Assembly: GCF_000003605.2 (NCBI RefSeq)
Contig: NW_003133846.1
Span: forward strand, 146,374 to 172,069
Source of the DNA: Saccoglossus kowalevskii
Taxonomy: Eukaryota; Hemichordata; Enteropneusta; Harrimaniidae
DNA: 25,696 nucleotides
Direction of reading: 5' to 3'
The position numbers and the translations under genes were made by a program. A model generated the notes under the pieces. It saw only the letters and a list, made by a program, of their open reading frames with translations. It was not told where the DNA came from and made no database searches. This document shows positions 4,423-25,666 of the stretch, piece after piece (position 1 is the stretch's first letter; each line of letters starts with the position of its first letter).

Positions 4423-4584
4423 ATGGACCCTTTCAAACGAGATATACGCAAAAGGATGGCACATAAAATGGCAAATATGAAACGAAAGCACCCGTCTCGG
4501 ATGCCAGTGTTACCGCACATTTTATCTCTGGACAAAGCGCTGGCCTCTGGATATGTACTCGATCCAGCACTGTTTGCCAAGACG
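4423..4584 (+). CDS. exon 1, N-terminal start of NWD-like protein
   Basis: The ATG at 4423 follows an in-frame TAA at 4414-4416 and is the only Met-initiated frame here that ends cleanly at a splice donor (GTAAGA at 4585) in phase 0. It encodes 54 residues rich in Lys and Arg ([15 protein letters not shown]...), followed by a hydrophobic-helical stretch ending LDPALFAKT. It resembles no domain I know. Phase 0 matches exon 2. The start could lie in a different upstream exon, so the choice of this ATG is an inference. Confidence 0.55.
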
Positions 4585-7500
4585 GTAAGAATGTCCGTGA
4601 ACACACATACACATGTGTTACTCCCGATCTAAATATATTTGTCAGTGTGATTATTTTTCTCTATAAGTTTATGGCGTCTATACTATTACAGATTAATAGT
4701 AGTTAGTTGACTTTTCTAGGGTCTATGGTTGGTATCCATATACCACAGTCTGTCAACGCAACGATATCAGTGTTTGCGACAGAGTTCAACCTTTGATTAC
4801 AATGCGATTGGGTTAAACTAGACTCATTTACCAATCATCGACGAACAGTTATTATTGTGGGGAAAAAATCTTTGTTTTCTCTAACTTCAGCTCCGAGCAA
4901 TTGACACCTGTTGAAATATATGAGCTAGTAATTTTATAAAGTGTCGTATGATTTCGCGTCATGTCATCGAGACAACCGTCATTTGTGTGTTGCGCCACAG
5001 GGGTCATCATGACTACCATGGACCGTGGATCAAGTGGACACATGTTTACTTACTGTCAACATTAACTCCATGCAAATACTGAAGCTAACTTTGGGTTATG
5101 ATTTCAAAGCATTCACATCCGCGTGTAATTCCTTCCATGACAGAATTTGGTGAAATCTACCAATTTCACCACCACAAGACAATTTATCGGTGACGAGTCA
5201 TTTTCCACATCAATCGATCTTTACAACATTCAAATATGTTCTTATTTAAGTGTCATACTTAACCGAAGCCAATTCGGGATCCGACCATTTTCGGCCGATT
5301 TTAATTACGAATTCAATACCGACATAGATGAACAGGTTTTAACACAAAAGTCACGTCCCGGGCATATACAACACTGCACCAGTATATAAAAGTTTATGAT
5401 GGGTGTCAACGATTAAGAGGTATTGTAATCTGGTTTGAAATCAATATTAACCAAATTAATAGAGAGGCCGACATGTTTACTGGTTTTCACAGAGATTAGA
5501 CTCACATGTCCTCAATGTATTTTGATCTATTTCAGAATGGAGCTTACAATGGTGCTAGAAATTTCTCCTTTCCACCCGTTCCTATCGGTTCAAAGTATTC
5601 ATCGCCGAGCAAAGCTAGTTCCAGTAGCTCCCTGCAGCAGCGTGACTTGGGACTTGCGCCCAACCCTAATATAGTGGAAGAGGTAGGTAAACAATCTCTC
5701 GGGGTTCGGGATCACGTGGTACGCATTCTCCAGCGAGTGGTGGCTGTAAACAATATCAACTCACTCTTAGCCGCGTACGAGATATTAGCGTTTTTCTACA
5801 ATCATGTTACAGAACTGTACAATCACGGCAGTGGCAAACATAAGCACCTGTGTGTGCGTCTGAATCACAGCGCAGAGGCACGCCCAATTCTATCGACTAT
5901 TAATAGAACAATTGATATGCTTTTACAAATAATCCTATCTTCAGGTACCTACCCCAAACTGTAGACTGATCATAATGCATGCTACCGTTATAAGATCGAC
6001 ATTGTTATGTATTAGAAAACTGAAAATTACCGGGAATATCCAAGCTTTAAACAATTATGAAACTCAAAGAATTATTCTGTGACGTCACATCCCTTCACCA
6101 ATGTGACATATTCATCTGGAACGACAAAAACGTCTGTTAAATACTCAAACATCAATACTAATACATGAATATACCCAGAATGTAATAAAAAAAATAGAAG
6201 TATATTGGCGTAAAGAAGGTGGGGTAAATTTACCATGACATATCCCGAGAAAATGCTGGCTAAGTTACAGTGGATTAATAGCGGCCATTTTGTGGCCATT
6301 CTTTCAAATTACAAATTGAACCTTTTACATAATTTTTAATCTTCTGAACTGAATACAGCGTGTCATGTGTGTTTTTGCAGTGCCGGTTAACAGGTTTGAA
6401 TTTTTTTTAAATATCAGTGTACTAGTACAGTCATGATGCATGTTTATTAGCAACGAAGTAACCGACAAACAAACAAACTCCGAAGACGTATGATCACTCC
6501 TTTTTTACGATTTACGATCATTTTGAAGTAGCTTTGAAACCTAAATGTGTTAGTGAAGTGTGGGGGAGGGGGCAGTTTACTTGCTGGTTTCAGAAACACT
6601 AACCGAATCGAATCGAACACATGCATATCGAGTACGTAAAACACTTTATAATCATAACTGAGATGAAAACACAGATTTGGTAATTAGTTAATCTTTCATG
6701 AAACAAAGTTCGTTCGAGATTTAGTGTACTGAATTGATAGACTGAAATGGAAGTAGTGAATTATAGGTCGACATTCGTTGTCCGGATTGTAAACACGCCG
6801 GCACATTATTAGACGGGTTTTGAAAGTGTCGGGGTACAGTGAACGGTGGGAGTGGTTTGAAACACAAAACCTGATTATAAATACCTTCGTGAACAAGTCT
6901 CGACTTTACCCCATCACTGTAAGCACTTGTCGTATTTACATTCATCTCTATGACGACCACAAGCGATTTCTGACCCTATTCTCGGCGTAGGTGACCTCCG
7001 GCCCGGATGACTTGCCTCACTCTGTTACATGAAGGCAATTTCACGTTAATCATGTTCGCGATACTAATCAATAAAACCGAATTTTCTTCTATCCTAATAA
7101 TTTTTTTTAATAATTAAGGGGGTAATTGGGACAAATATTTGTGTTACAGCAAACAGACACTAGGGGGGCTGTCCCTTAACGACTATGGAATGTATTCGTC
7201 CATGCGTGCAATGTTTCTACTAGACCCCGCACTCCACTTCACACTCACAAAACACATTTACTGTTGTACATTTCTGATCAAACAGCCAATCATGGATGTA
7301 CAAATACTTATTATTTTCAGATCGGTGATCGACACTGGCATGTACAGGGAAGAAGAGGAAGAATTAGTATCCGAAACGACAAAAAGATAGTCACTTATCT
7401 ACGGGTCAGTTGCGTACGAATTTTAAACTGAAATGTATAAAATTAAAATTACCCAAGCATACTATATGGGTAATTACAAATACCACAAGCCCTTGGTGTT

Positions 7501-10500
7501 ATGTGGTTTGTAATTCGTTTTGTGTGTGTGATGTTCATGAAATGGGGAAAATTTGAACATGAGTTTGGTTTATCGACCGTGACCCGTATTTGTTTTTATT
7601 ACAGCGACAACTTCGTAAACGCATACAGCAATGGTATGATGAGACCGACAGTGACGAGTACGACGAGGAGAAACACGACAGAATGCCGTTGAACTTGGAT
7701 TCCGAAGCATACGCGAAAAGGGTAAGAACAACGGCAATCAATGTTCAATTTAACCAGTTGTTCTATTTCACGCAGTTTATCGCGTCGCAAGCGGGCGCTG
7801 TCCACGAACAATCGGGTAGTTTGTAGTTTTAAGGGCAACACGATTTACTTTTAGCTATTTTAACCCGTATTGTGTTATTTCAGACCCCGTCTTGTAGGCA
7901 CCGAAAAAAGGCAATATTTGAGCAATATAACGATGTCGGTGGACGTGTGAGTAAGGAGGGGACGATGGTGAAAGAGGACACATTTGTGATGCGTCATCCT
8001 TTGATCGATATGTCGCCTCTACCGACGTCCCGTGTGCATTCGTCGTCAGATTCTGTCCTCGACGTTATTGACGGTGATATTATGGACAACAACAACACAC
8101 TGACGCAGTCCAGTGCTCTTAAGTATACCTCACAGAACGGTGACAATGATGTAGTCGTTAATGGAAACAGTCTCGAGAAAGGTGTCACTTTTGCGGAACG
8201 AGAGTTCGAAATCGTCCCGGAAGATAAGCGAACCGCTCCTAAAAGCTCCAGCTCGATGTCTATTACGTCCATAAGCAGCGGCACCAGCTCGCAGAGACAA
8301 ACGCCTGTCCACAGGGAAGGACAAGTCCCGGAGACCCTCCCAGAAATACACACAACCAAACACGACTCCCACTCATCACAATCTTCGACGGCGCAATCTC
8401 CGCCTCTTGTCGATGTCCTAAAACTGCCCAAAATTGCCGGTGCGAGTACTGAATATGAAAATGTGAACGAGGACTCTAATATCGATGACGAGGTGCGCCA
8501 GGCACAGGAACGCCCTGATACAAGAGGCAGCACAGTGGACTCCGATGAACAAATTGTAGCTTTTACACCAGTGCCAACTCCATACCCGTTACCAATAGGC
8601 CGATCTGATACCAACGATTATCTCAAGTTAGACTATCCAAACACAGTTGATCAGATAATCCGTGGACAGTTAAATGTCAAATGTCAAATCAATAAGAGGA
8701 TTATCCGCATATATGTATCATCGGGAATATCAGGTACGTACACAAAATATACCGGGTTTCCCAGAACATGGGCTCTATTAATTAATGCATGCACACTGGT
8801 CATGAGATTTAGTTGGTACAACCATGACTCTAGCGCATTAAATAACCGATGATTGTAGATGTAAAAAAAAATGTCAACATTTACTAGGATGACAACTTCT
8901 TGAATTTACGTCAAATTGGTCGTGGTTCATTCCAGTTGTGGTTAATTTCAAACCTTGTCCTATATACGTATCCACGGCAGTAATCGCAAACAAGGTCAAC
9001 ACACTGTGTCAAATGCATAAAGTACGTTGAAAAATAAACTTTACAGAAATATGAAACACACGCGTGTTTAAAGAGCGGTAGTTACCAAGGTAATTTTAGG
9101 TAATCAGTGCAAGTCGAGCCCAGGTTACCTCGCTTTAAACTGGGTGTGCTGGTCGCATATCCATATGTATATAACACTTACTGTCACTCGTCCTAGATTG
9201 TGAACCGGAGAGAAACGCAATGATGGAAAAGGTGTATCCCAAATTGAGACAACATTGCACGGAGAGAGGATTTGAGCTGCAAATTAGCGATCCCAATTGG
9301 GGGTTGAAAGACTCAATATTTGACGACCAGGGACATACTGATCTATGTCTACAAGAACTAAAACGAGCAAGACAAGTGTCGAGAGGGCCTAATTTCGTGG
9401 TGAGTAAACCTTGTGGTTTACCTCGTTTTATGCACTGGGATATCATGAAGTATTCCGGTTAGCATTTTTTGCAAATTCTAAGGAATGCAAGTTGAAAACC
9501 AACGTAATTATTTTCGTCATTTCTATGAATGACCACTCGGTATGGACCATTGTCATATACACCATTCTAAAGCACGTTTTGTATCTTACAGACATTTTTA
9601 GCTCAAAAATACGGCGCTAGTGAAATCCCGACATGCATTTCGTGTGAAGAATTTAATGCGTTAACTAATCTGCTACAAGGCCGTAGGGATGAGTACATTG
9701 CATCACACCGACCGCCTACCAGCGAGGGAGACGTCGAAGCGCCCTCTGGCGATGGAAGTTTGGTGAGAGAGAAATCAAGTGATAGCTTGAAAACCAAAGA
9801 GCCCAATGTGTCCAAGACGGTAGAGGCTCAGAAGACGCAAGTCAGGTAGGTCTCGTAATATTGTGTTAAACTTTCGTGGTAGTCTTTTGAGGGTGATAAA
9901 ATCGCCTTATATCTGCAATGTCAGACTTGTACTATAGTTGCTGTTTGAGTCGTTAATAGTTTTAAACCTATTTTTGTTCCAGTGGCGATCAGGTGTCTAT
10001 GCTGTGTTTTAAACCATATTATTGATACGGAGACAAATAAAATAGTATTTTAAATAAAATAGAGGAATCACAAAATTTTCTCGTCGTTATAGTCATCTCA
10101 TTTGCCAAAACGTCTTGCCTCTGCAAATAGAAAATATCAAAAACCGTCTCGACAGTGGCATACGTAAATCATCGAACCACAAAGCTGGAAGATTTCAAAC
10201 GGAACAATCTATCTTGTAAATTTATGTTTCACACGAAAACAAATTAAAGTTTGCGTCATATGGGAATCGGACATCCCATAAGTTCATTTTCATAAAACAA
10301 TCCTAACATCCAAACGCGAAAGTTACGGTATACAACACACCCACCCGCATAAATAATTACTAACACTCCATGCATTTATAATTAAATACCGATTAAGCAT
10401 CACGTTTATATCCATTTCTATTCATAATCTTAATCCCCACCATTTACATCTATTCACAAGGGATATTCAGTTGTGTTTAATAATAATTAATGTCATGCTG

Positions 10501-13500
10501 TTTAACTCTTTGTATTCCTCCAGTCATTTTGTCACATATGTAATAATCAGGGAGTGGTGATATTTCTTCAACCGTCTTTGTCGTATCCATGTTGTAAATG
10601 TATCAACCACTTTCTTCACCGTGTGTTTGCTTTTCCATTTATTGTTTGCACTCCCTTTTACATGATAATATACCTATATTTGCTGGATAACCACAGGAAG
10701 TTCCGCGCAAGGAAAGCATTTCTAAGAGGGGCTTCTAAAGTGATGCGTGCTAGCAGGGTCACACGTGCCTTCATGGTACGATCCATCAAACCAAATCTCA
10801 CGAGAATACGGTAATTGTAACGAAATCACGTTTCCTGCACTTTTGTTTTTTATCACTTTTAAGTGCTATATATATCGTGCTTTGCCGTTTAGTGTTCACT
10901 AACCCCATACACAGCTTGTACCTGCAATTAACATTTAGGGAGAACCTTCATATTTAGAAAAGAAGGATAGAACGAGGGGGATCTTCTGCTGCAAGGAACA
11001 AATATCGAAATTCTCATTTCTCCAAAAAACAAAGACGGTTTCAATTTAAAATTGGTATTGAATAACACTGCCATGGTTCATGTAGTTGGTGATCTCCCTC
11101 CCTCGGAAATAACAGAGAACTCACGAGTGTATCATAGAGTAAACTAATAAGCACTTAGTTTAAAATAAAATATAGAGTCGATTAACAAGAGTTTTCTATA
11201 CATGTGAAGTCACTTCCGTATGTCTTATCTATATATGGACTGTGACGTGGCGTCACTTCCATGTGTCGATTCTATATATAAGCTGTGACATGACGTCACA
11301 TCATATGTATTTCCCATACATAGACTGTGGCATGACGTCACATCATATGTTTTTTTTTTGTGACGTTATTTCATTTCTTATCTATATATGAAGTTGGGTT
11401 AACTATACCATCTCTATGCGCGGGACAGTTTGTGTGACTTTATTTTTCAGCCTGACAATTCGAGCAGACGTAACCGACTTATTTCAGCATTATGTCACGG
11501 TCACGGTAATGTAGCGCTCTGTCTTACGCGACAGAACTGAATTGCGCTTTCGTTTGTTATTGCGTGTTTCTTGCGTGTTGCATGACGTCATATTTGCACG
11601 ATTTGTATTGATGTTGGCTGTGTAATACTTTGCACTAGCAGATAGCAGAGCGCTTTAGATTGGAAACAATTCAGTAGCCAGTATAATTTGGTAGTTATTT
11701 TGGTGGGACGTTTTAGTATTTCCAGTTACAAGAACGTATTTTTAGAGACAGACTATGTCTCACCTTCAGTAACTGACTTGTGTGCGTTCTAAGCTGGCTG
11801 TAACAAACTCTAGTGATAATTTACATTCATTACGGTCTGTCGCGTGAAGCCATGTCCATCCTCGCTGTGGGGATGGAAGGTGTACACGGAATTATTACTA
11901 ATTACTTGGTGTATTGTTGTTGACAGCGAAGGGGAAGGGGGCAAGTCGAAATTGAACCAATCACACGACGATGATGTGGTGAAAGAGAAGTCTGACCGTG
12001 ACTACGACTCCGAGATTACGCTGCTTAATACATGGTATAAACTAGATGAAAATACAGTTCCACCTGTGTACCGACTACAACTAATCAGGTCAGTTAATCC
12101 TCATGACTATCGGGACAGTCGTGATACTTGATTCAACAGCCACGTAATCATTTTCATCCGGGTATGTTGTTCTGTTTTCAGCTCCCAGTTCAAAGACATC
12201 AACGCCCGTGATAACGTACGAAGGGTGACTGCAAAACAACAATGGGGAATCCAACATCGCCGATTGGAGGCGCTGTTTCAGACTTACATCAGAGATATCA
12301 CATCTGATCCTGCCAGAATTGATAATTGCTACAAGTCAGGTTAGTTGAGAGCACCAACAACATTCCAAAAGCAGATTCCGTCCACTTTTCTGTCAGTGTC
12401 CCAAATTTATGAAATATTGATTATTATATTTCAGTACTGGAGAGAGAGATCGAAGAAGGGATATTGAATTTAGAGTACAAACCTTTCGAGGAAGTCCAAT
12501 GGTTTCGGAGAAAAATCACAGACTTAGAAATGAATGTTGGAGATTTCAATGCCAAGGAATTTATGGATATCATCCCAATGTCATCAAAAGCTAACAAAGA
12601 GAGAAGCGACAGGTTGCATGTGTTGAGTAACATTAAAATACCAGACAGGGTAAGTAATCGAGTTGTCACGGTTACAGTTAGATCAGCAAGTAGATGTTTC
12701 TCTCCATAATCCCTGATATTTCGGTTCATTAATGGTAAAGTTATCATTTCAATAGTTATTTAAGAAAAAGTGATATAACACACTTTTTCTATTAATTGCG
12801 CCCTCTAGTAACGCCCCCGTTACTTCGAAATTACGTAAATAGAAGAATTATACTTAGAAATCATTCTTATAATTTATCAAAAGAATGTAAAACATTGGTA
12901 CTGTTCATATTAATCTACCCCGAGGCCCTCCAGAAAAATAGATAAATATAAAGTTACATTAACTATTTACAAATAAAATATTCAAAATCTTTGATTTAAA
13001 AGTTTAAAAATTGTAAATTATTCTTACGGGCGGTGAAAATTCGTTCCAATGCGCTAATGGCCGCAAACTTGAAAGAACGTTTATATAATTTCGTCACGAC
13101 ACACGGTAATGCGGGAGATTTTGAACTCGTTTTAATATTTGTTATATTTAGCTGGTTCTGGTAATGCTAACGTTGTGACAACGTTGAAAGATCACCACTA
13201 CGCAAATGTGGTCTAGTTATGTACTAGTATGTAAGAAATTGACACACATAAGGACTCAACCATGACCGTTCTCTCTGCATCCTGGACCTTCAATTCGGGC
13301 TTGTTCATTAGTCAGTGATTTATCAAATCAGATTTCGGAAACATCAACATTACCATCATTTCTGGGGTCTGACAAACGAGTGTTTTTGGAACAGGATTCT
13401 CACATGTAAATTAACAACATTTTAGGCCTTTGTTGGGTAATTTGAAAAAAGACCAGGCTGATTTTGAACCACAGTCAGATAGTGTACAAGTATAATACAA

Positions 13501-16500
13501 TAAATGGAATTTAATTTAATTTAATTTGCCGTCATTTACTCTATGGGGTCGCCATCTTGGATAAGTTGAGAAACGGGTTTACATATATTCGTAGAAATAG
13601 AACTTTGCCTGGGAGATTGAGGCTGCAGGTCAAAATAATGTCGCCCAGTGACGGCACAGAAGCGTTTAATCTCTAGGGGCACGGCTTATATTGAAGTGTT
13701 TGTTTTGACACAAACGCGGAACGGCGAAAGATGTGAAGGGAAAGTGAAAAAAGCTGCTAAAATATCAGTAATTGTAATTCTAAACATGTTTATTTTCAGA
13801 CAAGTTTATCAAATGTACACGAATACAGCGTCGGTTGGCACGCCGATGGTATCAGACCAGAGACCAATAGAGGGCACTACCTCTACATTGAGAAGATGGC
13901 ACGTGACCTCGGTGACGTACTGATCAATAAAGTAGATCGCGCCATTCATGATAATATGGCGGCCACGGATGCTAAATCGAAACTTTATGACGAAATTGCT
14001 CAGCATGTACAGTTTGTGAGGGAACGGTTAGTAGTTCGACCAAGTGCATGGACAGAGTAATATATAAAACACTTGTTTTGTATTTCACATTTCATAAACT
14101 GAAATAAGCAGAATTTGTTTTGCAGAATTGTTAAAGCAAGAGGGTCGCCACCTGCGCACGCGCGGGATTTGGGTCCCAAGACTGCGCATGTGCAGATGAC
14201 GACTCCCCTGCTTTATTGTCTATATTGCCGATTTGCATTGTGGGTCGCAATTCAACAGAAGCGTTGTTAAACAAATATTCTGTTTATAAGCGAATAATAA
14301 TGTGGTTTTGTCATGTAGGTCACGCGTTTTCCATGGCCGTAAAGAAACAATGAACAAAATAAAGGAATACGTTCGAATGGGTCCCCGTCAACCATTGATA
14401 ATCCACGGTCAATCAGGTTACGGTAAAACATCAGTCATGGCTAAGGCTGCAAAAGACGCACCATACATGTTGAAATAGTGAGTTACCCTATCCTTATTCA
14501 ATTAGTTAATTGCACAGTACTGTTGTTTTTCGTTTGTCATTTAGTATTGAACCGCATGTGCAAGCTTGATGGAAATATTTGTTGTATTAACATGTATGCA
14601 TGATACTTGCTGCAATTATTCTAGATTTTAAAAAATACGATTATTCCCAATTTGGACATATTTAGGATTTAATTCGAAACTGTATTTGTTACTATATTCT
14701 ATTGTATCTACGTATTGCGTGTTCATTTTGATGAATCTTAATATTTAATCAGCCTTCACGACGAGGATAGTTTAGCAAAATTGATATTATATAATCATAA
14801 TATAACTTGTACGATGATGAAGTGGCCTTAACGCACGTTCTTCACGTTCACCTTTCAGTGGCGAACCTCACGTAGTGGTTCGATTAGTTGGGATAACCGG
14901 TGAATCTTTACACATTAGACAGCTACTACGTAGTATGTGCCTGCAGTTATGTTATATCTTCCATCAAAACTCAGCAATGATACCACACGTAAGTTGTATC
15001 CTATTAGTCACGTGTTACCGTTGTTGTAACATACTGTGTGCTTAATACTTGTACTTGTAGTTCCATTGCAAATTAAAGTTATTGAACATTTGGGTACTGT
15101 GAAAGAATTAATTATTCACGGGGTTGTGTTTTCTTATTATATTGACGTGAACAAATAAAAATCCCTGGTAAATGCATGGAATTAAAAACCAGTCGATATG
15201 CTCAAAATAACGAAATTAAATGATATGTGGGTCTCATATAAACAAAGATGGCGACTTTGACTGTTGCGCAGATCAACGAGTACAAACTGGGACGTTTCCA
15301 AGCTTTAATTGGGTAATTGTCAGGTGATTAGAAAGTATCGACGGAATCACCGGCGGTATTCAGTGCATGTCGCGCCCCAGGTCAAACCTCATACTTGTGA
15401 TTTCCATTTGAAGAGCGCATTGGATTGTGGGGAAATTAATGTTTATCAACACAAATGTCGCACATGCAGCAACGCGACGACCACCGCCCTTTAAATACCT
15501 GTGAAAAATAATGCAATTACAGTACACTGTCAATTATTATATCCTCTAAAATTTCAGAAAAATACACAATCACAGAAGATCTGGGAAATGTATGTTCATT
15601 TAATATGACTCAAACAAGACATGTTCTGTATTATAGGACTATAGGGGAGCATTAAATGACTTTAATGGACGACTTGCTGGGGCAACGGAAGACAATCCTC
15701 TCTTTATTTTCATGGACTCGTTAGACCAGTTATCCAATGAAAATGACGGCCGTGGATTACAATGGCTGCCAAAAGAACTGCCAGAACACGTTTATATGAT
15801 CGTTTCCACGCTCTCCGAAGACCACTACGACTGTTTCAGCACACTGAAGGTATGCACAGTTAAACCAATACAATCAAGTTGATGTTGTACAAAACGTACT
15901 AATATTGCATCGTTCATGTTCATTGCGCCCACTAGAGACGAAATGGGTGTCGGGTGCTGTTCACAGCATCGTTATTATTCAGATCCGTGGTCGTGTCAAT
16001 ATTAGAAACGTTAAAATTATTGTAGTCGGAATTGGAGGTTTTTGGAGCAGTCTGATTATTAAACTTAATAGAGTCGCGTGTCAACATATGCTAATCAACT
16101 TATGCTACTTCGCTGTATTTCTCTTTGCAGAAAATGTTTCCGGAAGGCGACAATTTTGTCGAAATACCAGAACTGCCAGAAAGCGATGCGGAATTCATTT
16201 TGGATCATTTGTTAGCGCACGAGAACCGTGCTATGACAACCGAACAGCATGACGTCATCACCACGGCATTTAGAAAATGTCCAACTCCTCTGTATTTGCG
16301 ACTGGCAATAAACGAGTCCAAGACATGGAGGAGTTATTCAACCGGAAAACAAATCTGGATCGCTGACAGCGTGAAGAAAGTCATAACTGGTAATTACTTT
16401 TTCAATTTTTGCCGATTTATTTGAGAAAGCACTAAATCTGAATCTGAATTCATATACTTCGTGTAGCATACGCCTGTTTGATTCAGTAATATAGACCAAA

Positions 16501-19500
16501 CCAAAATCGTGATTTAAAAACCACAATCAGTCATTATTGCTCTGAATTTTCCACAAGAATTTCGGTATATAAGGGTTAGTCATAATGAAATGCATGTTTC
16601 GTTCCAGCTATTTTCAGCAAAATGGAGTCACAGCACGGCGAGCCATTCATACGCAGAGCCCTTGGTTACATCACAGCAGCACGTAGCGGGGTCACTCATT
16701 CGGAATTACTTGATTTGCTATCCCTCGATGACTTGGTAATGGGTGATGTATCGTCGCACATGACCGTGAACGTTCGTCGGTTTCCACCGATTCTGTTGAT
16801 GAGGCTCCGTAATGATCTTGATTGGTATCTGACGGAGCAATCTGCGGATGACACGTGGACGTACAGGTGGTCACACAGAAAACTCCACGAAGGTGCTGTC
16901 GAGAGGTTTGTAAAACAAATAAGATGCCCTTTCCTTATAAACACCACAAGTTGGTCAAACCAGTTGCTGTTTCATTTCTTTAGCTATATACAACAAGATG
17001 TTTCAAAGACTCAATTACCACGTATATCAAAAATGACGTCACTCTTGTCACGCAACTTTTACGTACAGGAAGGAATTATTTAAAAAAATCAATTGTACAA
17101 ACACAAATTTCAATTTATTTCAAACTAAAGTAAAACCTTATATATATGAATATTTCAATTGTTCGTTATTTATACTTACAATTTGAAGTTTTATTACTTC
17201 GAATCATAATGAATAATGTCAATGAAATAAAGTCAATGAAATTTAGGCTTTATGCAACACGCTTCTTGATTCAGGGTTGAAAATCCATATTCAAGTGAAA
17301 TTCACGATTACGTTGAAAAAAATAAAGCTGTACTTATCCATCCAATTACAGATACCTAGAACAGAAAGACAAAGCGCCCTCGTACCACTCAGCACTGAGT
17401 GAATATTTCATGGGAATTTGGGCCAATAAGAAGAAGCCATACCCGGGATCGGAATCTGGCGCCTTCAGATACGTTGACCCCCAGGCACTGACGTATAACA
17501 TAAACACGCCTACAGGTATATCTTTTGTCAATGAAACTTTTTACACACCACAGTAATTATTAGTGTAGTATTATTGCTTATCACTGCTATATAGTGTTTT
17601 CATATTAATACACAATAATGAATCTAGAGTCAACGCGTAACTATTTACTAGATCGTGTCTGATTGGCTACTTAACCCGAACACCTTACAGTCTGACCAAT
17701 CAGAAAGCAGCTTGTTTTGACATGTTTGTTTTCGATGTATGAAATTCTGACATGTATATATACTTTGATTTAAATGTGAACCTACATTGGAATGTGAAAT
17801 ATTGGAGAACTCAGGTATGACCAAGGATTGGGTGAAAACAAAATACTTTTTTGCCCCACTCAAATATTCACCATATTAAGGGCGGCAGTCGTCGCGCCGC
17901 GTCCTGTTCGATATGGGACTCATAGCGACGTATACAACGCGTGTAAAATACATTGTTTATTTACATGAAATTCGACACGCGCTGCGCGACGACCACCACC
18001 CTTTAAGCATTGCATTCTACAAAATACATTTATTATATGTTTTACTTTCTATTAGGAAAAACCAAGACTATATTCAATCTACGCAAATTAAATGAATTAC
18101 CACACCATCTGATAAACTCTAACCAGTTTGAGAAGTTGAAATTAGCAATCCTGCTTAATTACGAATGGTTTGGCCTAAACTACGAGCGACCTCTCTACGG
18201 ACTGTTCTCGACGATATTCACAACGCTCTAGTCATCGAACCCAGCGACAAGGAATTGAAGCTCATCGCCGACTCGTTGCAGTTGTCAGAGACAGCATTAA
18301 TGCGGAATCCCCGAGAGCTAGCCACACAATTGGTTGGTCGGCTCCGTGATATCATTGTCAAAGACAAACCGATATCACCGGGTGATCCAAAGAAATATCC
18401 ACACATGGGACGTTTTCTGAAACAGGCCATCAAGTCTTCCATTCCCACGTTCATACCTTCTATGACTTGTCTGACCCCTCCTGGGGATGTTCTAAACGAC
18501 CTGTTAGCCGGACACACCGATGTCATAACAGCGATCACTGTGACCGCGGATGGATATATTGCTGTAACAGCAGCGAAAGACAATTGTATAAAGATATGGG
18601 ATTTAAGAAGCGGTAAAGTAACCAAGACAATCCAGGGAACGGGGAAACAGGTAAGGGGTTCCACCATCAGATTAACAAATATTGTTTTTAAACTGTTCAT
18701 ATTATTTGCCAATGTCACACTGTATCTTTCGTTGTAGATACGTGCAATACGGCTGTGTCTCAATCATTTCTATGCTGTCACCGCTGAGACTGGGATGATT
18801 CGAGTTTGGAACACAAGAACCGGCCAATGCGTTTTCAAAGTAGACGACTACATTGACCCAGCGTCCATCACTGCAGCTGGCGGTGATTTGCAAATTCTTG
18901 TGGCGTTCTATAATGGTTCCAACGTGATGAGAACGTGGGATTTGGAAAATAATTTCCAGAAACTACAAGACGTCAAGGTCCAAGAAGATGACGGTATCCA
19001 CAAAGATCAATCGCTGTGTATTTCGTACAACTCACATGGCGATCAGGTGTTGTATGCTTTCCGGAGTGGGAACAAAGCTTATGTTCGTCATGCCAGAAAA
19101 GGACAATTGGTTAGTGTTTTATTTGTCTGTAAACAATAGCATTCATAGGTCAGCTTTTTTGCAAGCATCTGGACCAATGTATTAACCTACCTCATTTGTG
19201 TACATGTGCTTTCTACCAGGTTCGTACACTGACGGCATCACGTGACTCAGCCTCCATAACAGCGGTTGGCGTAACACGTGATTATTTTGTCGTGAGTTGT
19301 CGCTATCAGTACATGAAGCTATCTGAGATTTATCACCTAGAATTATTTGACACCAAGAATGGATCCTTCATTAGGTTTGTCAAAGGTAAGTTTAAATATT
19401 CATGTAATAACTGGGATTTATTAAGTTGCCATGGGACAATTGTACTTGTGTAAATTACAAAATACTCTTCCTCTTCTCTTAAAGGTTGCACCGGAGACAG

Positions 19501-21487
19501 GATTACAGAACTGATGATCAACAAGTCAGGTTCGCACGCTCTGTCTCTGTGTACATCTGTTGATACAAACACTTCAGATATTGCTGTATGGAATATCGAA
19601 ACTGAAGACCATAAACATTTAGGTAGACATGCCAAGGTATGTTGTTGAGTAACGAACATTAAATGAATACCTTATGAAATCAACTTTTTTACTCGTTTAA
19701 CATTAAAGCGCGGTAGTCGTCACGCTACGTATGTGCGACATTTGTGTTGATAAACATTGATTTTCCCACAATCCAATGCTCTCTTCGAATGGAAATCACA
19801 AGTATGAGGTTTGACCTGGGCGCGACTTGCACTAATTACATACATGGAGAAGGAGTGTATATGTTCATATATATAATGTGGAATGTATTATGGTATATGT
19901 GAGTATATATACTGTTATCATATGGAATATACTTTAATCATGATTGTGTGATCAACATTTTTGGGTATCTAGGTGTCGACCATGGGTGCCTGCATGGATC
20001 TGAATTATTGTCTAACAGCTGCCAAAGATGAGAGAGCTCTCCGGAAATGGAATTTATCTCAGAAAATCAACGATAGAGATGAGGCCGGAAAGTCAAAAGA
20101 TAAAGGTGGCATAGCTGAACTGTTGCCAATGAAAGACAACCCAAGGTATGTGATTGCGAAGAACTCTAGGAATGGTCCCATGGAGGTGTGGAATGTTGTG
20201 AAAGACAAATGTGCAGGAGCTCCCATCCGTACAGAAAGAGGTCTGACTGGTGACCACGACATTGTCTTGATCCGAAATGAGCAGGTTGTCATCCTCACCG
20301 ATCGTGGCATGTCCAGTGTCAGCGAAGAGCCGAAGCCAGTGTTTCAGACAATATACTCATATAACCTGCAGACGAAGAAGTATACCAATAAACTGAATAA
20401 TGTCTTCATCGTGCCATCACAGCCACACGAATATCGATTGCTAGATAATAAATTATTGATGGGACTGTCAGATACCAGAGACCACCTGATATGTTGGAGT
20501 TTGGAGACCGGTCATGTAGTGCAGAGGATAAAGACGAAGTTCAAAGAGATGGAAAGGCAGCAAAGAACACTTGGACGCCGAGATGAATCAAATCTTCATG
20601 CCATCAGCCCGATGAAACAACGAGCAACCCTGCGAAGGGAGACCACAGCTATGATGACACCCTGGGAACGTCGATCTGAGACTCACACAGCAAGGACGAG
20701 AAGAAAGGAAGGAGAGATTGATAATGAGAGAAAACGTATCGAAGATTTGAGGAAAGAGAAAGACAATGCAATAGAACAATTTATTATGAGTAAGGACGAG
20801 AAAATTCTGTTATGTTCTTACTTTTCCCACCACCTGTGCGTTTTTGATATGAAGACACAGACGCATATATCAACCTTGGAAATGGAGAGTTCAATGTTGT
20901 ACTTACACACTGCTGCTATGACGCCTACTGGTACACACATGGTCCATGCAAATTACGATGACTGGGATAAAATAAGCTATGTCACACTGTGGGATCTGAA
21001 GACAGGTCAAGTACGCAAACGTATCAAGAACGAGCCAAATGTTTTCGCCATTGCAATCTCTGATGATGCCAATCGAGTTGTTTTTGGTAATGATAAGAAT
21101 ATTCTAAAGATTTGGGATCCTTTTCAGAAGAACTCTCTCAGGAAGATTAAAGGCTATGCTGGGTTGAGACTAGGTGTTGGTAGTCAGATGTATTTGATTG
21201 AAAGGGCTACACAGGCAATCGTTCTTAGTGGGGATGTTTCTCTCTGGGATCTCGAGAAGGCAGCATTGCTGGCGGTATATACGCCAGATACACGCATTCA
21301 ATGCATGGAAGTTGTTTTAGATGGGCAACTCATTATCTTAGGCCTCAGGGACTCATCTAGTGTAGTCACGTTGAAGCTAAAAGGTAGGGAAATTAAAGAA
21401 GTCAAAATACCGCGAGATATAGGGCCAGAGTTGTTTAATGAAACAACTGGTGATACAGATGATGAGGACTCCGATGAAGATCCATAA
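4423..21487 (+). CDS. NWD1/NWD2-like NACHT-WD40 STAND ATPase (whole gene span, about 22 exons)
   Basis: This entry spans the complete gene; exons are listed separately. Joined at GT-AG sites with matching phases, they give about 2,300 residues: an unrecognised N-terminal extension (about 1-515), a DUF4062-type domain (about 516-620 and onward), a helical region, a NACHT NTPase (P-loop about 1007-1015, Walker B Asp about 1100), a winged-helix and helical arm, about eleven WD40 repeats (about 1530-2290) and an acidic tail. By family it is a STAND signalling ATPase whose propellers sense and whose NACHT core switches on nucleotide binding; the ligand is unknown. Phrases such as [21 protein letters not shown] and LPxxLP-type NACHT segments line up with vertebrate NWD2 as I remember it. 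Human NWD2 is about 1,740 residues, so this protein is longer, mainly at the N-terminus. The frame breaks once, at about 18165, and the connection between exons 2 and 3 is uncertain. TEP1 and NPHP3 are related alternatives but fit less well. Confidence 0.85.
4585..5535 (+). other. intron 1
   Basis: GT-AG intron of 951 bases with a strong donor and a polypyrimidine acceptor ending TATTTCAG at 5535. I see no repeat or second gene in it. Confidence 0.5.
5536..5944 (+). CDS. exon 2, Ser-rich linker and helical segment
   Basis: The exon is open for 136 codons from the acceptor at 5535 to a donor GTACCT at 5945 and ends in phase 1. Its first third is Ser-rich and probably disordered ([12 protein letters not shown]). 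The remainder is a run of amphipathic helices, including [20 protein letters not shown] and a Leu/Ile-rich end. I recognise no family. A second donor, GTAGGT at 5683 (phase 0), would shorten the exon to 49 codons and join exon 3 in frame, giving a possible shorter isoform. Confidence 0.68.
6381..6393 (+). CDS. tentative 13-nt microexon
   Basis: Exon 2 ends in phase 1 and exon 3 begins in phase 0, so coding sequence of length 2 mod 3 must lie between them unless the short exon 2 is used. A good acceptor (GTTTTTGCAG, ending 6380) followed by TGCCGGTTAACAG and a donor GTTTGA supplies 13 bases. Together with the block at 7321-7366 this restores the frame. A longer version ending at 6418 (38 bases, donor GTACTA) also restores it alone. 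The evidence is only phase arithmetic and splice-site quality. Confidence 0.22.
7321..7366 (+). CDS. tentative small acidic exon
   Basis: After an acceptor ending TTATTTTCAG at 7320, a 46-base block encodes [15 protein letters not shown], acidic like the adjoining exon 3. It needs a phase-2 entry, which the proposed 13-nt microexon supplies, and it leaves in phase 0 at GTATCC (7367), a weak donor. If that donor is not used, the frame continues seven codons to a TAG at 7388. It could be a chance match. Confidence 0.28.
7605..7721 (+). CDS. exon 3, charged linker
   Basis: A 39-codon, phase 0-0 exon between an acceptor TTTTATTACAG (7604) and a strong donor GTAAGA (7722). The peptide starts basic ([13 protein letters not shown]), becomes very acidic (DSDEYDEE) and ends EAYAKR. 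It has no known domain and is probably part of a flexible N-terminal extension. The symmetric phase means it could be skipped without a frame change. Confidence 0.75.
7884..8733 (+). CDS. exon 4, disordered Ser/Thr-rich extension leading into DUF4062
   Basis: This 850-base exon, phase 0 in and phase 1 out, encodes 283 residues. Most is low-complexity and rich in Ser, Thr, Asp and Pro (for example [19 protein letters not shown] and PVPTPYPLP), as expected for a disordered, phosphorylatable region. The last dozen residues change to [13 protein letters not shown], the first beta strand of the DUF4062-type domain, matching the RVFIS strand of NWD2. The donor is CAG|GTACGT at 8734. Acceptor and donor are both strong, so the boundaries are firm although the sequence is unconserved. 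Confidence 0.85.
8734..9196 (+). other. intron 4
   Basis: A 463-base GT-AG intron. I see no repeat, RNA gene or second frame worth reporting. Confidence 0.6.
9197..9399 (+). CDS. exon 5, DUF4062-type domain core
   Basis: Phase 1 in, phase 0 out, donor GTGAGT at 9400. It encodes [19 protein letters not shown], then [18 protein letters not shown] and a helix ending [12 protein letters not shown]. The order ER-x-VYPKLR-x-C-x-GxE-x-Q-D-x-WG is the signature of the N-terminal domain of NWD1/NWD2 proteins, a Rossmann-like, TIR-related fold also found next to bacterial STAND ATPases. Usual family members have Leu-Tyr-Trp-Gly where this one has Pro-Asn-Trp-Gly. Confidence 0.92.
9592..9845 (+). CDS. 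exon 6, end of DUF4062 strand-helix and acidic/basic linker
   Basis: Phase 0 in, phase 2 out (donor GTAGGT). It opens [20 protein letters not shown], equivalent to the VGLLGEKYG...IP segment of NWD2, and continues with a helix ([12 protein letters not shown]). It then departs from the family into a roughly 45-residue charged, probably disordered linker with repeated EK/KS dipeptides. The linker sits exactly where the optional exon 7 is inserted. Confidence 0.9.
10697..10810 (+). CDS. exon 7, in-frame basic cassette exon (probably optional)
   Basis: A 114-base block with acceptor ACCACAG (10696) and donor GTAATT (10811) is phase 2 on both sides, so it can be included or skipped without a frame change. 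Skipping joins exon 6 to exon 8 through an AG|C serine codon. It encodes [20 protein letters not shown] followed by a similar basic run, with about 14 Arg/Lys and no acidic residue in 39. I know no counterpart in NWD2. An internal donor (GTACGA at 10776) would break the frame. Transcript support is needed, as this is called from frame and composition only. Confidence 0.5.
11209..11350. repeat. 43-bp tandem repeat with CRE-like palindromes, in an intron
   Basis: Units begin at 11209, 11252 and 11295 (43, 43 and 42 bp), with a partial fourth at 11337. Each contains a GTCAC start, a TATAT core and a CTGTGRCRTG end. Unit junctions create the palindrome TGACGTCA at 11291-11298 and 11333-11340. A further TGACGTCA lies at 11583-11590 in the same intron. 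TGACGTCA is the consensus binding site of CREB/ATF bZIP factors, but function here is only a possibility. Confidence 0.85.
11927..12088 (+). CDS. exon 8, helical region after DUF4062
   Basis: Phase 2-2 exon, acceptor TTGACAG and donor GTCAGT (12089). After a charged stretch it encodes [20 protein letters not shown], aligning with the LLEEWYCRDENSVPAAYYL motif of NWD2. That is a reliable family landmark and fixes the frame. The last split codon, AG|C, gives Ser with exon 9. Confidence 0.92.
12182..12339 (+). CDS. exon 9, helical region
   Basis: Phase 2 in, phase 1 out; acceptor TCTGTTTTCAG, donor GTTAGT (12340). Its 53 residues are mostly helical and charged ([20 protein letters not shown]... 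[15 protein letters not shown]), equivalent to the stretch between the WY-x-DEN motif and the NACHT domain of NWD proteins. Confidence 0.9.
12435..12649 (+). CDS. exon 10, helical region
   Basis: Phase 1 in, phase 0 out with a consensus donor GTAAGT (12650). It encodes [20 protein letters not shown], then [13 protein letters not shown] and [20 protein letters not shown], a helical pre-NACHT segment. The corresponding NWD2 region ends RDEFIPTIVASSN, similar in role to the end of this exon and the start of exon 11. Confidence 0.92.
12650..13799 (+). other. intron 10
   Basis: A 1,150-base AT-rich intron. It holds a short ATTTA-type run at about 13507-13530 and nothing else I recognise. Confidence 0.6.
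13800..14026 (+). CDS. exon 11, pre-NACHT segment
   Basis: Phase 0 in, phase 2 out (donor GTTAGT at 14027). There is no methionine near the start, so the block is easily missed by ATG-based scans, but it is fully open and in phase with both neighbours. It encodes [20 protein letters not shown] and then helices such as [17 protein letters not shown] and [15 protein letters not shown]. It matches the family's conserved W-x-x-x-G-I-x-P-x-x-x-x-H-x-x-Y-x-E region that leads into the NACHT domain. Confidence 0.92.
14131..14217. mobile_element. short inverted-repeat element, copy a (intron 11)
   Basis: An 87-bp element with near-complete terminal inverted repeats. The left end is TTAAAGCAAGAGGGTCGCC and the reverse complement of the right end is AATAAAGCAGGGGAGTCGTC; both continue with a CTGCGCA-like block. 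GC-rich arms in AT-rich surroundings and TTAA-like ends suggest a non-autonomous DNA transposon. It has no coding capacity. Confidence 0.75.
14319..14477 (+). CDS. exon 12, NACHT domain P-loop (Walker A)
   Basis: Phase 2-2; acceptor ATGTAG and donor GTGAGT (14478). It encodes [19 protein letters not shown], then [29 protein letters not shown] (14407-14433) is an exact GxxGxGK[S/T] P-loop that binds the nucleotide phosphates and Mg2+ through its Lys and Thr. The preceding hydrophobic strand and the following helix complete the first NACHT beta-alpha unit. All catalytic positions visible here are intact. Confidence 0.97.
14478..14858 (+). other. intron 12
   Basis: A 381-base AT-rich intron with a consensus donor and acceptor. 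I see nothing further in it. Confidence 0.6.
14859..14988 (+). CDS. exon 13, NACHT domain
   Basis: Phase 2 in, phase 0 out (donor GTAAGT at 14989). It encodes [20 protein letters not shown], then [15 protein letters not shown]. This is the NACHT strand and helix that carries [11 protein letters not shown] in place of the family's VIVRFLGTTDMS, followed by the conserved LLxSxCxQL helix. Confidence 0.96.
14989..15636 (+). other. intron 13
   Basis: A 648-base intron whose second half holds element copy b (15367-15494). The rest shows nothing I can name. Confidence 0.6.
15367..15494 (-). mobile_element. dispersed repeat, copy b (intron 13, opposite to copy d)
   Basis: The reverse complement of this stretch is about 85-90 percent alike, by eye, to bases 19703-19829. 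Shared landmarks include AGGTCAAACCTCATACTTGT and TTTATCAACACAAATGTCGC. It ends in CGACGACCACCGCCCTTTAA, the same terminal sequence as element c. Its other end lacks a clear inverted repeat, so this is probably an old or truncated copy. Confidence 0.8.
15637..15849 (+). CDS. exon 14, NACHT Walker B
   Basis: Phase 0-0, 71 codons; acceptor TATTATAG and donor GTATGC (15850). [12 protein letters not shown] (15700-15735) is the Walker B strand with Asp-x-x-Asp, equivalent to LVIIFDALEQLS of NWD2. It is followed by [20 protein letters not shown], matching WWLPAHLPRFVRIVLSTL (sensor 1 region). The first Asp coordinates Mg2+ and the second position is the usual acidic catalytic residue. Confidence 0.97.
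16131..16389 (+). CDS. exon 15, end of NACHT and helical linker
   Basis: Phase 0 in, phase 1 out (donor GTAATT at 16390). It encodes [20 protein letters not shown], then a helix with the NACHT sequence [18 protein letters not shown]. The last part matches the family pattern C-x-x-P-x-[FY]-[VL]-x-L-x-x-x-E-x-x-x-W (NWD2 CTLPMFVNLTFREVRHW). Confidence 0.96.
16608..16905 (+). CDS. exon 16, winged-helix-like arm
   Basis: Phase 1 in, phase 2 out (donor GTTTGT at 16906). Two acceptors lie 12 bases apart. The upstream one (CCAG at 16607) keeps the frame and gives [20 protein letters not shown]; the downstream CAG, just before CAAAATGG, gives a -1 shift and is not used. The exon continues [20 protein letters not shown], matching RALGYITMAKMGLSEMELEDVLALDN of NWD2, and ends [13 protein letters not shown]. 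This arm connects NACHT to the helical and WD40 parts. Confidence 0.96.
16906..17351 (+). other. intron 16
   Basis: A 446-base AT-rich intron. A reading frame continues from exon 16 through the donor to a TAA at about 17081, so intron retention would add about 60 residues and stop. I see no repeat here. Confidence 0.6.
17352..17515 (+). CDS. exon 17, helical arm
   Basis: Phase 2 in, phase 1 out (donor GTATAT at 17516). It encodes [20 protein letters not shown], then [13 protein letters not shown] and [18 protein letters not shown]. HxxLxxYFxGxW-x-x-KKP is a family signature (NWD2 HTILADYFLGVWSGGRRK). It opens without a methionine but is in phase with both neighbours. Confidence 0.94.
17516..18055 (+). 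other. intron 17
   Basis: A 540-base intron containing inverted-repeat element c close to its 3' end. Otherwise unremarkable AT-rich sequence. Confidence 0.6.
17877..18006. mobile_element. short inverted-repeat element, copy c (intron 17)
   Basis: A 130-bp element with about 25-bp imperfect terminal inverted repeats: left TTAAGGGCGGCAGTCGTCGC, right (reverse complement) TTAAAGGGTGGTGGTCGTCG. TTAA flanks both ends, as expected of a TTAA-inserting DNA transposon such as a piggyBac-type MITE. There is no coding capacity. It ends about 50 bases before exon 18, so it sits between the branch-point region and the donor. Confidence 0.8.
18056..18650 (+). CDS. exon 18, helical arm and first WD40 repeat, with a frame break
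   Basis: Phase 1 in, phase 0 out (donor GTAAGG at 18651), acceptor CTATTAG. The first frame encodes [20 protein letters not shown], then LLNYEWFGL and meets TAG at 18229-18231. The second frame, -1 relative to it, is open only after TAA at 18156-18158 and encodes [18 protein letters not shown]. It goes on to the family hallmark [18 protein letters not shown]... QLVGRL and then [15 protein letters not shown]...KIWDL, a canonical WD40 blade. Both frames are clearly coding, so a -1 change occurs between 18159 and 18228, best placed at GGTTTGGCC (about 18167-18175). One missing T would restore the exact NWD2 spacing (15 residues from Trp to the Asp-Ile pair). This may be a sequencing error, a real mutation or, less likely, frameshifting. 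Confidence 0.88.
18738..19109 (+). CDS. exon 19, WD40 repeats
   Basis: Phase 0-0, 124 codons; acceptor CGTTGTAG, donor GTTAGT (19110). It holds blades ending [15 protein letters not shown] and [13 protein letters not shown], each with the typical strand-d WD/WN pair, and a third strand set [20 protein letters not shown]. These propeller blades are the presumed sensing surface. Confidence 0.95.
19220..19385 (+). CDS. exon 20, WD40 repeat
   Basis: Phase 0 in, phase 1 out with a consensus donor GTAAGT (19386). It encodes [20 protein letters not shown], then YFVVSCRYQ and [17 protein letters not shown], one divergent blade with FDTKNG in the WDxxTG position. Confidence 0.93.
19485..19636 (+). 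CDS. exon 21, WD40 repeat
   Basis: Phase 1 in, phase 0 out (donor GTATGT at 19637). It encodes [20 protein letters not shown], then [20 protein letters not shown], one complete blade with IAVWNIET as its strand-d motif. Confidence 0.94.
19637..19972 (+). other. intron 21
   Basis: A 336-base intron, about 40 percent of which is element copy d; the remainder is TATAT-rich. Confidence 0.6.
19703..19829 (+). mobile_element. dispersed repeat, copy d (intron 21, opposite to copy b)
   Basis: It begins TTAAAGCGCGGTAGTCGTCA, an end like those of elements a, c and e, and its body matches the reverse complement of 15367-15494. The far end lacks a clear inverted repeat, as in copy b, so both are probably the same truncated variant. 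Confidence 0.8.
19973..21487 (+). CDS. exon 22, terminal exon: WD40 repeats, coiled-coil insertion, acidic tail
   Basis: Phase 0 after acceptor GTATCTAG; 504 codons to TAA at 21485-21487. Blades include [98 protein letters not shown] and [17 protein letters not shown] charged helical insertion of about 84 residues (20525-20776) splits the series. It contains [17 protein letters not shown] and [14 protein letters not shown], the latter a phrase I associate with invertebrate NWD homologues. The protein ends in an acidic tail ([12 protein letters not shown]). An uninterrupted 1.5-kb exon is unlike the short upstream exons. Confidence 0.96.
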   Translation: MSTMGACMDLNYCLTAAKDERALRKWNLSQKINDRDEAGKSKDKGGIAELLPMKDNPRYVIAKNSRNGPMEVWNVVKDKCAGAPIRTERGLTGDHDIVLIRNEQVVILTDRGMSSVSEEPKPVFQTIYSYNLQTKKYTNKLNNVFIVPSQPHEYRLLDNKLLMGLSDTRDHLICWSLETGHVVQRIKTKFKEMERQQRTLGRRDESNLHAISPMKQRATLRRETTAMMTPWERRSETHTARTRRKEGEIDNERKRIEDLRKEKDNAIEQFIMSKDEKILLCSYFSHHLCVFDMKTQTHISTLEMESSMLYLHTAAMTPTGTHMVHANYDDWDKISYVTLWDLKTGQVRKRIKNEPNVFAIAISDDANRVVFGNDKNILKIWDPFQKNSLRKIKGYAGLRLGVGSQMYLIERATQAIVLSGDVSLWDLEKAALLAVYTPDTRIQCMEVVLDGQLIILGLRDSSSVVTLKLKGREIKEVKIPRDIGPELFNETTGDTDDEDSDEDP

Positions 21488-22393: not shown

Positions 22394-22556
22394 TTAACGC
22401 GGGGAGTCGTCACCTGCGCATGCGTCATATGGCCATAGCGTGTCATTGTTTACGAACAAGCGTATACCATGGGCCTTTGCGTTTTGAGCGTGTGTTGTTA
22501 TCGTCGTTTGGGACTCAATTTCCGAGCGTGCGCAGGTGACGATCCTCCCGCTTTAA
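22394..22556. mobile_element. short inverted-repeat element, copy e (3' flank)
   Basis: The largest and cleanest copy, 163 bp. The left end TTAACGCGGGGAGTCGTCAC and the reverse complement of the right end TTAAAGCGGGAGGATCGTCA continue into a shared CCTGCGCA block, for about 28 bp of terminal inverted repeat. TTAA borders both sides. The internal sequence differs from copies a to d. It is non-coding. Confidence 0.82.
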
Positions 22557-23920
22557 CAACCGTCCAACAAATGCACGCAATGTTTTGTACGTCCAAAGGT
22601 ACGGCACTGATCATTTTTGTGGATGAATGTCCCGACTTTTTTGTGTATCCTGCCATCACATAGCATGCATGAAAATGTTATTATTTAGTCCATATTTATT
22701 TGAATTATTAAAGTTGTTTAACATGTTCATTACACGTAAGGTGGCAATATGGAGCTTGGAATGAATAAGTTGCATTAAATATTAGTGCTGCACTATACTA
22801 GACAGCTCTACCTTTGGTGCGTGCCATATTTAAACATTTTGCTGTGAATCATTTTATCAATTCCGTCCAATGCGAACTTTCCTGAATTGAAATCATACAT
22901 GTATTTTGTAGTTAGTTTTTTATGATACATATCAATTTACAAAATCCATTCATTATTTGATTTCATGTACATATATTTGTAACACAAATATTTCAAACAA
23001 CATTTTGCTATTACATTTTTGTTCAAAAAAATGTATTCTATTAATGCCCAAGTCAATGTAACTGAATCATTTGACAGTTGAGGTTAAAGTTCGAAGTGAC
23101 GAAATCGAGGTTTGGCGTCATATATACAAACAAAAGTGAGAATATTAGATCCAGATCATTCTGATCATTGGGTTTCTGTCTGTTCTGATATACATACACA
23201 TTGTAACCTCCACTGCATACACGTATAACGGCGGGTGTACATAGATTGGCGCACAGTATAAGTTCGCGAATTATGTGCTGTTATATGTAACATTGTAGGG
23301 AACATACAATAGAGAATATTTGGTAAAACACAAGTTATGTACTATTTTCGTAGTTATATAGCTACTTAGAAAACTAATTATATAGAAATTGTGTGCTAGC
23401 TAACTTGAATTTATATTTTAATACACAGAACTTAGGTTCCATATACAGTAATAAATTGTATATGACATTCATCTAAGGGAATTTAACATCATGTTATATC
23501 TTAAATTGTATTGCATCACAATGTCGAATTGAGAGATAAAGCAATCATCAATTTACACGAGTGTATATATTCAAAGTAACTCGTCAACCACAAATCATCT
23601 TATTTATAACTGTATCGGAAAGTTGTAATGTTTCCGTCCATTTTAACGAAGTGTGACTAATGTTATAAATGAATATTTTTTGTAAGTATTTTTTTGTAAA
23701 ACAAGTGACAATTTACATTTTAAATAAATCAAACAGCATTAAAAGATGATAATAAAACTTCGCTGTTGTATTTTTCATGAATCTTTATATAAACTGAACG
23801 AAAATAAAATAATGCTCTTTTCATGCGGTGCCTGTCTCCTCCATACAAAAAGGTAGGTATTCACCGTGCATACATTATATTAAATGTATAAACAATTGGA
23901 GTTATCACATCTCAAATGGA
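22557..23920. other. AT-rich flank without recognised features except AATAAA motifs
   Basis: No frame, RNA gene or repeat that I can name, apart from the AATAAA cluster listed separately and a single AATAAA near 23451. Confidence 0.55.
23723..23808 (+). terminator. cluster of three AATAAA poly(A)-signal-like motifs
   Basis: AATAAA occurs at 23723-23728, 23751-23756 and 23803-23808 on the gene's strand. If used, the 3' UTR would be about 2.3 kb. In AT-rich DNA such motifs also arise by chance, and an earlier variant signal (ATTAAA near 21665) is an alternative. Confidence 0.3.
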
Positions 23921-25320
23921 CCCCCCCCCATATTGCATGTATTAAGGGTTGAGGTTAATTTCCCATCTTTACACATCAGAAAATTATAAAATCTGTTAGG
24001 GTTTCATTTTTAGTAAGACTATTTTTCAAATACATGTTTGAAAAATTTGTGTTTTTCACATTTATATGAGTAAGGACATAGTTCCCAATATAAAGGGTTT
24101 AGTATCCCACATTGCGTTTTTTACATATCAAAGGGGCTGATTTCCCATGTTATACCATATCTGAAAGTGTGGGGTAATTTCCCCATAATACATATATAAA
24201 CGTTGTAACATATAAAGGGCTTAATATGTTTTAACGGCCGAGGTTTGTAATTATATATAAAGGGTATGATTTTTCTACATTACATATTTTAAAGATTGGG
24301 CGTTTCATTTATAAAAGAATAATTGTCCCATATTACATATCTAAAACGTGAGGGGTTTCGTGATTGATTTATCTACATTACACTTATTTATTATTCGGGT
24401 TTTCAAATTTAAAGGGCCAATTTCCTACACTACTTGTCTAAAGGGCTGGGATTTTCACATTTATAGAGGTAAGCTCTCATTACAGGTATAAAAAACACAG
24501 TCAGCTGGCGCACACGATAACAAAATTCGGCCGAATTCGTCGTTATTGTGTGGAAAAATCCTAATTACACGAAGAACATAGAACACTTTAGATTGGTATT
24601 TTTGTCCAGATTTGTAGGAATCTGAAAAACGCGTTTCACAACTTGTCTCTTATTTAGTTTTATGCTGCATTCAAGATGGCGGCCCCCATATAGTAAATAT
24701 CGTATTTATTTTAAATTATTAACACGTGTGCGCCATATTGAAATGGCAGAGGAATTCAAATATAAAGGAGTTATTTTCTCACATCATTTATATAAATGGT
24801 TTGGATTTTCACGTAACATGAGTATTTTACCGGCCCATATTATATATCTGATAGGCTGGATAATTCACACACAAAGAGTTAATTTCTCCCACATTAAAAA
24901 TCTAAAACATAAGGGGCTTCACGTATAGAGTGTTTTGGGATTTTCAAATATAAATATTACATTTCTCCTACCACATGTCTGAAAGGTTTGGAATACCCCC
25001 CCCCCTCCAACACACACACACACGTATTACATACACAAAAGATTAAAGTTTTACGTATTAATTTAAAGATTAATTGTCCAACATTACATATCTAAATAGT
25101 TGGGTGTTTCATATATAAATAATTAATTGTTCAACATTACGTAACTAAAACGTAAAGGTTTTCACATGTACAGGAGTGGTGTCCCCACATTACATACCTA
25201 AATGGTTGTGGTTTCCCCACATAACGTGTTAATTGCCACACATTTCATATATAAATGGTTAGGATTTAAAGAGTTAATTTTCTTCACACTATATATCTAT
25301 ATAAGTGTAGGGTTAAATAT
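23921..25320. repeat. highly decayed minisatellite, about 50-60 bp period
   Basis: From a C-run at 23921, similar phrases recur every 50-60 bases: ACATTACATATCTAAA, a G-rich GGGTT or GTTGGG, TTTTCACATTTATA, and AAAGGGTTAATTTCCC. The order is constant though individual copies vary greatly. Several C-runs and a short CA run at about 25005-25023 interrupt it. No coding frame is supported. Confidence 0.65.
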
Positions 25321-25330
25321 ATTATTTTAA

Positions 25331-25666
25331 ATTCAGTCTCACTGTTTGGTCAACATGGCCTTATTAATTATGCTCATATCTAATACTAGATTCAGTCTCG
25401 AAGTGTTTTGTCAACATGGCCTTCCTAATTATGCACACATCTTCTTCTAGATTCAGTCTCGCAGTATTGGATCAACAGGACCGTATTATGCTCATATCTA
25501 ATTCTAGATTCAGTCTCACTGTTTGGTCAACGTGACCTTATTAATTATGCACATATCTAATACTAGATTCAGTCTCGAAGTGTTTTGTCAACATGGCCTT
25601 CCTAATTATGCACACATCTTATTCTAGATTCAGTCTCAAAGTGTTGGGTCAACAGGACCTTATTAA
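25331..25666. repeat. about 60-bp satellite with a 3-unit (177-bp) higher-order pattern
   Basis: Units begin with ATTCAGTCTC at 25331, 25390, 25451, 25508, 25567 and 25628 (lengths 59, 61, 57, 59, 61, then a partial). Units 1 and 4 share ACTGTTTGGTCAAC, 2 and 5 share GAAGTGTTTTGTCAACATGG, and 3 and 6 share a GTATTGGATCAACAGGAC-like form. The order A-B-C repeats, so the array was amplified as a 177-bp trimer. The right end decays near 25666. Confidence 0.93.

Follow-up and report, generated by a model that had tools for sequence, protein, structure and literature searches.

Introduction

In the proteins NWD1, NWD2, TEP1 and NPHP3, a DUF4062 domain lies beside a NACHT domain and an APAF-1-like helical domain; DUF4062 is assigned to a TIR-like NADase family, and among the four human proteins NAD+ hydrolysis is ascribed to TEP1 only, according to PMC13174449. 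QUI-1 of C. elegans is given as the NWD1 orthologue in PMC8871372.

The gene described below appears to have the same domain order as NWD1 and NWD2 of animals and as QUI-1 and T05C3.2 of C. elegans, but differs from them in that its reading frame is broken in the helical arm. This arm is homologous by profile (48.1 bits) to that of APAF-1 and of prokaryotic STAND proteins with an APAF1_C domain, although NACHT is accompanied by DUF4062 in this gene, whereas APAF-1 combines CARD with NB-ARC. A likeness of another kind is offered by the apparent frameshifts of T. brucei, which, as PMC8445201 reports, likewise consist of a single indel in an otherwise intact frame.

We analysed a stretch of 25,696 nucleotides, referred to in its entirety as the window, which contains, on the + strand, a large intron-rich gene that resembles an immune sensor. 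The gene can be followed from DUF4062 to the WD40 region, and its coding sequence (CDS) of 6.6 kb is interrupted once, in exon 18.

Results and Discussion

A gene of the NWD1/NWD2 type

The principal features of the gene, all on the + strand, are as follows.

4423 to 21487, + strand: NWD-type gene modelled in 22 exons, of which 21 are open and can be joined in phase while exon 18 is broken
8680 to 9399, + strand: DUF4062 (TIR-like), end of exon 4 and exon 5, continuing into exon 6
14319 to 16389, + strand: putative NACHT-type NTPase, exons 12 to 15
16608 to 16905, + strand: NWD1-like winged helix, exon 16
18056 to 18650, + strand: exon 18, APAF-1-like helical arm and first WD40 blade, one base short
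18738 to 21487, + strand: putative WD40 propeller region, exons 19 to 22

Judged from its sequence, this is an animal NWD1/NWD2-type STAND protein gene, with the apparent domain order DUF4062, NACHT, NWD1 winged helix, APAF-1-like helical arm and WD40. DUF4062, which sits before NACHT as in proteins of the NWD1/NWD2 type, scores above its Pfam cutoff (PF13271, E=5.1e-6, 27.0 bits, cutoff 24.7), and so does the winged helix (PF25469, HTH_NWD1, 50 bits, cutoff 27), whose score rises to 55 bits when the neighbouring exons are included. The NTPase region displays a P-loop, GQSGYGKTS, and remains below the cutoffs of both Pfam NACHT (PF05729, 19.5 bits, E=0.00095, cutoff 26.7) and AAA_16 (28.3 bits, cutoff 32.6). 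A profile that we built from 36 relatives recognizes the helical arm, which scores 48.1 bits when X stands at the break, while Pfam APAF1_C gives the joined arm 17.3 to 17.6 bits, below its cutoff of 22.8. Many beta-propeller families match in the last exon, none above its curated cutoff; PF00400 reaches 26.5 bits against 27, and the NWD2_C propeller 24 against 33.

No relatives of the gene were found in the viral_contigs collection, and an Rfam scan of the window gave no match. Comparison with solved structures was of no help with the register of the break, because the NACHT-to-arm piece matched nothing, the frame-B piece matched WD40 proteins only (among the best 60 of 555 matches), and the three matches obtained for the joined arm were weak (E 0.31 to 2.7) and did not include APAF-1.

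The 22-exon model was put together manually, with open frames and GT/AG ends as guides; since exons were picked so as to join, the phase consistency of the 21 intact exons is partly built in. Exons 1 to 4 are its least certain part, and the first 185 residues of the modelled protein match no Pfam family.

The frame break in exon 18

The coding sequence of the model totals 6632 nt, that is 3k+2, and exon 18 is its only break. Exon 17 enters exon 18 at phase 1, corresponding to frame A, and exon 19 requires frame B; at 595 nt, exon 18 is one base short (or two long) for the phase of both neighbours. Frame A, read from 18058, yields 57 residues before its stop codon, and frame B is open only after a TAA at 18156-18158, from which point it runs to the end of the exon.

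18058 to 18171, + strand: frame A part of the helical arm, ending in NYEWF
18169 to 18177, + strand: likeliest site of the one-base break, from Pfam join tests and profile scores
18174 to 18650, + strand: frame B part, from PKLRATS to the first WD40 blade
18229 to 18231, + strand: TAG ending frame A; the model as given ends here in a 1335-aa product without WD40

The break falls within the arm that links the NACHT/winged-helix switch to the WD40 sensor. A preliminary description of this DNA had claimed the same limits for the two frames, which the reading frames bear out, and a deficit of one base in an otherwise open gene, with which the phase arithmetic and the 21 other open, joinable exons agree. 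It had also placed the break in GGTTTGG (18167-18173), a position that accords with the Pfam spacing and join tests and with the profile of relatives, both given below.

A codon-usage model derived from the 21 remaining exons favors frame A over positions 18058-18170 (A +8.1, B -14.6 and C -28.3 bits) and, weakly, frame B over positions 18171-18226 (3.3 bits, against 0.1 for A). The resulting distribution of break points is broad and peaks at 18207 (probability 0.18) instead of at 18171-18174.

Family spacing and the size of the break

When the two parts were joined with a varying number of X between Trp and Lys, Pfam APAF1_C matched at one of seven spacings, three X (17.5 bits, E=0.004), and gave no match with 0, 1, 2, 4, 5 or 6 X; nor did it match either part by itself, frame A or frame B, or a form using an acceptor at 18186 (one match in ten proteins overall). 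When the join point was varied instead, two of ten joins matched, those after 18171 and 18174.

Since a slight drop in score may be enough for the filters of HMMER to suppress a match altogether, a filter-free profile was made. A probe sequence led to 39 bacterial and archaeal loci, of which 36 entered the profile; L028 and L032 were left out for their long inserts and L035 as truncated by a frame change. Pfam APAF1_C scores above its cutoff in four of the five prokaryotic loci tested, which ties the profile to that family. With 0 to 8 X at the break, the arm scores 39.5, 41.1, 42.4, 48.1, 42.8, 41.8, 41.1, 39.7 and 38.7 bits, respectively; by join point, it scores 45.6 (18168), 48.2 (18171), 48.6 (18174) and 44.1 bits (18177). 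The best of 200 shuffles reached 3.7 bits.

The relatives themselves are uniform at this place: exactly three residues separate the aromatic residue from the Lys/Arg in all 36, and a further 11 (24 of 36) or 13 (12 of 36) separate the Lys/Arg from the Asp. A Trp-x15-Asp spacing thus matches 24 of the prokaryotic relatives, the other 12 having 17, and equals the 15 residues between Trp and Asp-Ile that the preliminary description gives for human NWD2. Aligning the two arm pieces separately leaves one empty codon column (alignment A1, in which the cut points 18171 and 18174 were chosen by the analyst and 9 of the 39 loci were left out).

Family spacing and join scores together indicate that one base is lacking, within about 18169-18177. 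The locus is best explained as an NWD1/NWD2-type STAND gene whose given sequence lacks a single base at about this place in its helical arm; from the sequence, one base lacking appears more likely than two extra. A gain of two bases was considered and rejected, its profile score being 42.4 bits against 48.1 for the loss of one.

The locus omitted as truncated, L035, belongs to the cyanobacterium Argonema antarcticum. At about 2501-2718, the frame of its arm shifts and, shortly beyond DFIEAKI...LRLIKG, meets a stop, so that this domain has an apparent frame break there too.

Two of the rival readings take the sequence to be complete as it stands. Programmed -1 ribosomal frameshifting in the overlap of the two frames would agree with the -1 sense of the shift, and CCTAAAC at 18174-18180 is one letter off a slippery heptamer. 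The preliminary description had pointed to this near match, which is indeed present, and had already ranked frameshifting low. That ranking stands: CCTAAAC is the single near match, frame A of exon 18 holds no strict X XXY YYZ heptamer up to its stop, and the folding of 18160-18280 does not exceed that of shuffled sequence (z-score 0.52, with 143 of 200 shuffles as good, in pseudoknot-free folding). All 36 prokaryotic relatives in the profile, moreover, read through the site in one frame, and we regard recoding here as exceedingly improbable.

Equally hard to credit is a pair of genes, one encoding a WD40-less protein that ends at 18231 and the other a downstream protein of 896 aa. A suitable start exists in the frame-B ATG at 18165, two codons past the frame-B stop, but the halves of one conserved helical domain flank the break at exactly the family spacing, which a split of the gene need not keep.

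Possible splicing around the break

A further possibility is that splicing skips the break and yields an in-frame protein with a shortened arm, either through a 77-nt intron at 18168-18244 or by pairing the exon-17 donor with an acceptor at 18186 or 18288.

18168 to 18244, + strand: best GT-AG pair inside exon 18, 77 nt, total score 7.1; judged not to be an intron
18287 to 18288, + strand: AG in phase with the exon-17 donor, at the 96th percentile; possible bypass

The preliminary description held that no GT-AG pair could join the two frames. This is not the case: 12 GT-AG pairs (and 44 GC-AG pairs) inside exon 18 join them with no stop codon in the way, and the exon-17 donor could be paired in phase with any of 13 alternative acceptors. 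In the best pair, the donor at 18168 (4.9) and the acceptor at 18244 (2.2) each outscore the weakest of the 21 donors or acceptors in the model, and the acceptor at 18288 (6.6) stands at the 96th percentile when every AG of the window is ranked.

The best pair nevertheless scores no better than chance, an equal or better one occurring in 26 of 57 one-base-deleted control chunks of the same gene (overlapping chunks drawn from exons 4, 19 and 22, which test in-exon pairs and not acceptor-only choices). The 77-nt stretch has a GC content of 50.6%, against 28.7-41.9% in the 21 modelled introns, and is shorter than the shortest of these (87 nt). Removing it lowers the profile score of the domain from 48.1 to 26.4 bits, a loss of about half, and use of the acceptor at 18186, which at -4.3 scores below all 21 modelled acceptors, lowers it to 25.1 bits. 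The stronger acceptor at 18288 would cut 233 nt from exon 18, including much of the helical arm. An intron inside exon 18 is thus judged unlikely, its sites lying within the weak range and its GC content and length outside the range of the 21 introns, and splicing past the break, by whichever route, seems to us improbable.

Sequence artefact or recent allele

The break is most likely ordinary in kind, reflecting either an error of sequencing or a gene copy broken in the usual way rather than any new mechanism. Of these two, we lean slightly toward an artefact over a true frameshift allele, and infer with a probability of roughly 0.52 that the consensus is in error or that a pair of haplotypes was collapsed. 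In its favor, exon 18 holds the sole break in 6.6 kb of coding sequence, the 21 other exons being open and joinable. Long-read assemblies, and collapsed or uncorrected ones, are known to yield such indels (PMC8445201).

Against an artefact stands the local sequence, in which runs of equal bases do not exceed three. The coding sequence contains one homopolymer run of 6, nine of 5 and 63 of 4, all of which fit open frames; with the longer runs fitting the frames and the break lying in none of them, the usual pattern of homopolymer errors is not followed.

A real loss of one base, whether a frameshift allele of recent origin or a gene that has newly died in the individual or its species, is a substantial possibility to which we lean less. 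The deficit is exactly one base and falls outside long homopolymers, and broken alleles are common among STAND genes. The other 21 exons, however, are open and have usable splice sites, and any real loss would therefore be very recent. Were it real, translation would stop at 18231 and the product would lack its WD40 sensor. An mRNA with splice junctions downstream of its stop codon is an expected target of nonsense-mediated decay; four lie beyond this stop, and the mRNA of a real allele should thus be such a target. In the given sequence, a true allele of recent origin would look no different from an error in the consensus or from collapsed haplotypes.

Very improbable, in our estimate, is a break that is both real and kept, in which a 1335-aa DUF4062-NACHT-winged-helix protein would be freed from self-inhibition, a step drawn from analogy with APAF-1. 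The 3' splice site at 18288 or 18186 would provide a second form with a shortened arm, and the locus might then act as a switch between sensing and sensor-free products. If the loss were true and maintained, it would offer a naturally occurring version, devoid of the sensor, of a STAND protein about which little is understood.

The consequence is mainly one for annotation, in that automatic gene calling would split this NWD gene in two or label it a pseudogene. The spacing of the arm, which is conserved between prokaryotic STAND proteins and this animal gene, also offers a way of detecting and locating a one-base break from sequence where reads are lacking.

Repeats in the window

Several repeats lie in and around the gene. 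A pair of 90-nt inverted repeats (15376-15465 and 19731-19820), 96% complementary and situated in two introns, probably represents copies of a short mobile element. A second inverted pair, of 52 nt and 85% complementary, has one arm in an intron (14128-14179) and the other beyond the gene (22508-22559); GC-rich sequence of the CGTCAC/GCGCA type, like that of this pair, recurs. The long intron between exons 7 and 8 contains a 43-nt tandem repeat of 3.4 copies (11205-11350), and tandem arrays occupy both ends of the window, with a 41-nt unit in 7.1 copies at its start (1-291) and, at its end (25317-25661), a 61-nt unit in 5.8 copies, which can also be read as a 177-nt unit present twice at 92%.
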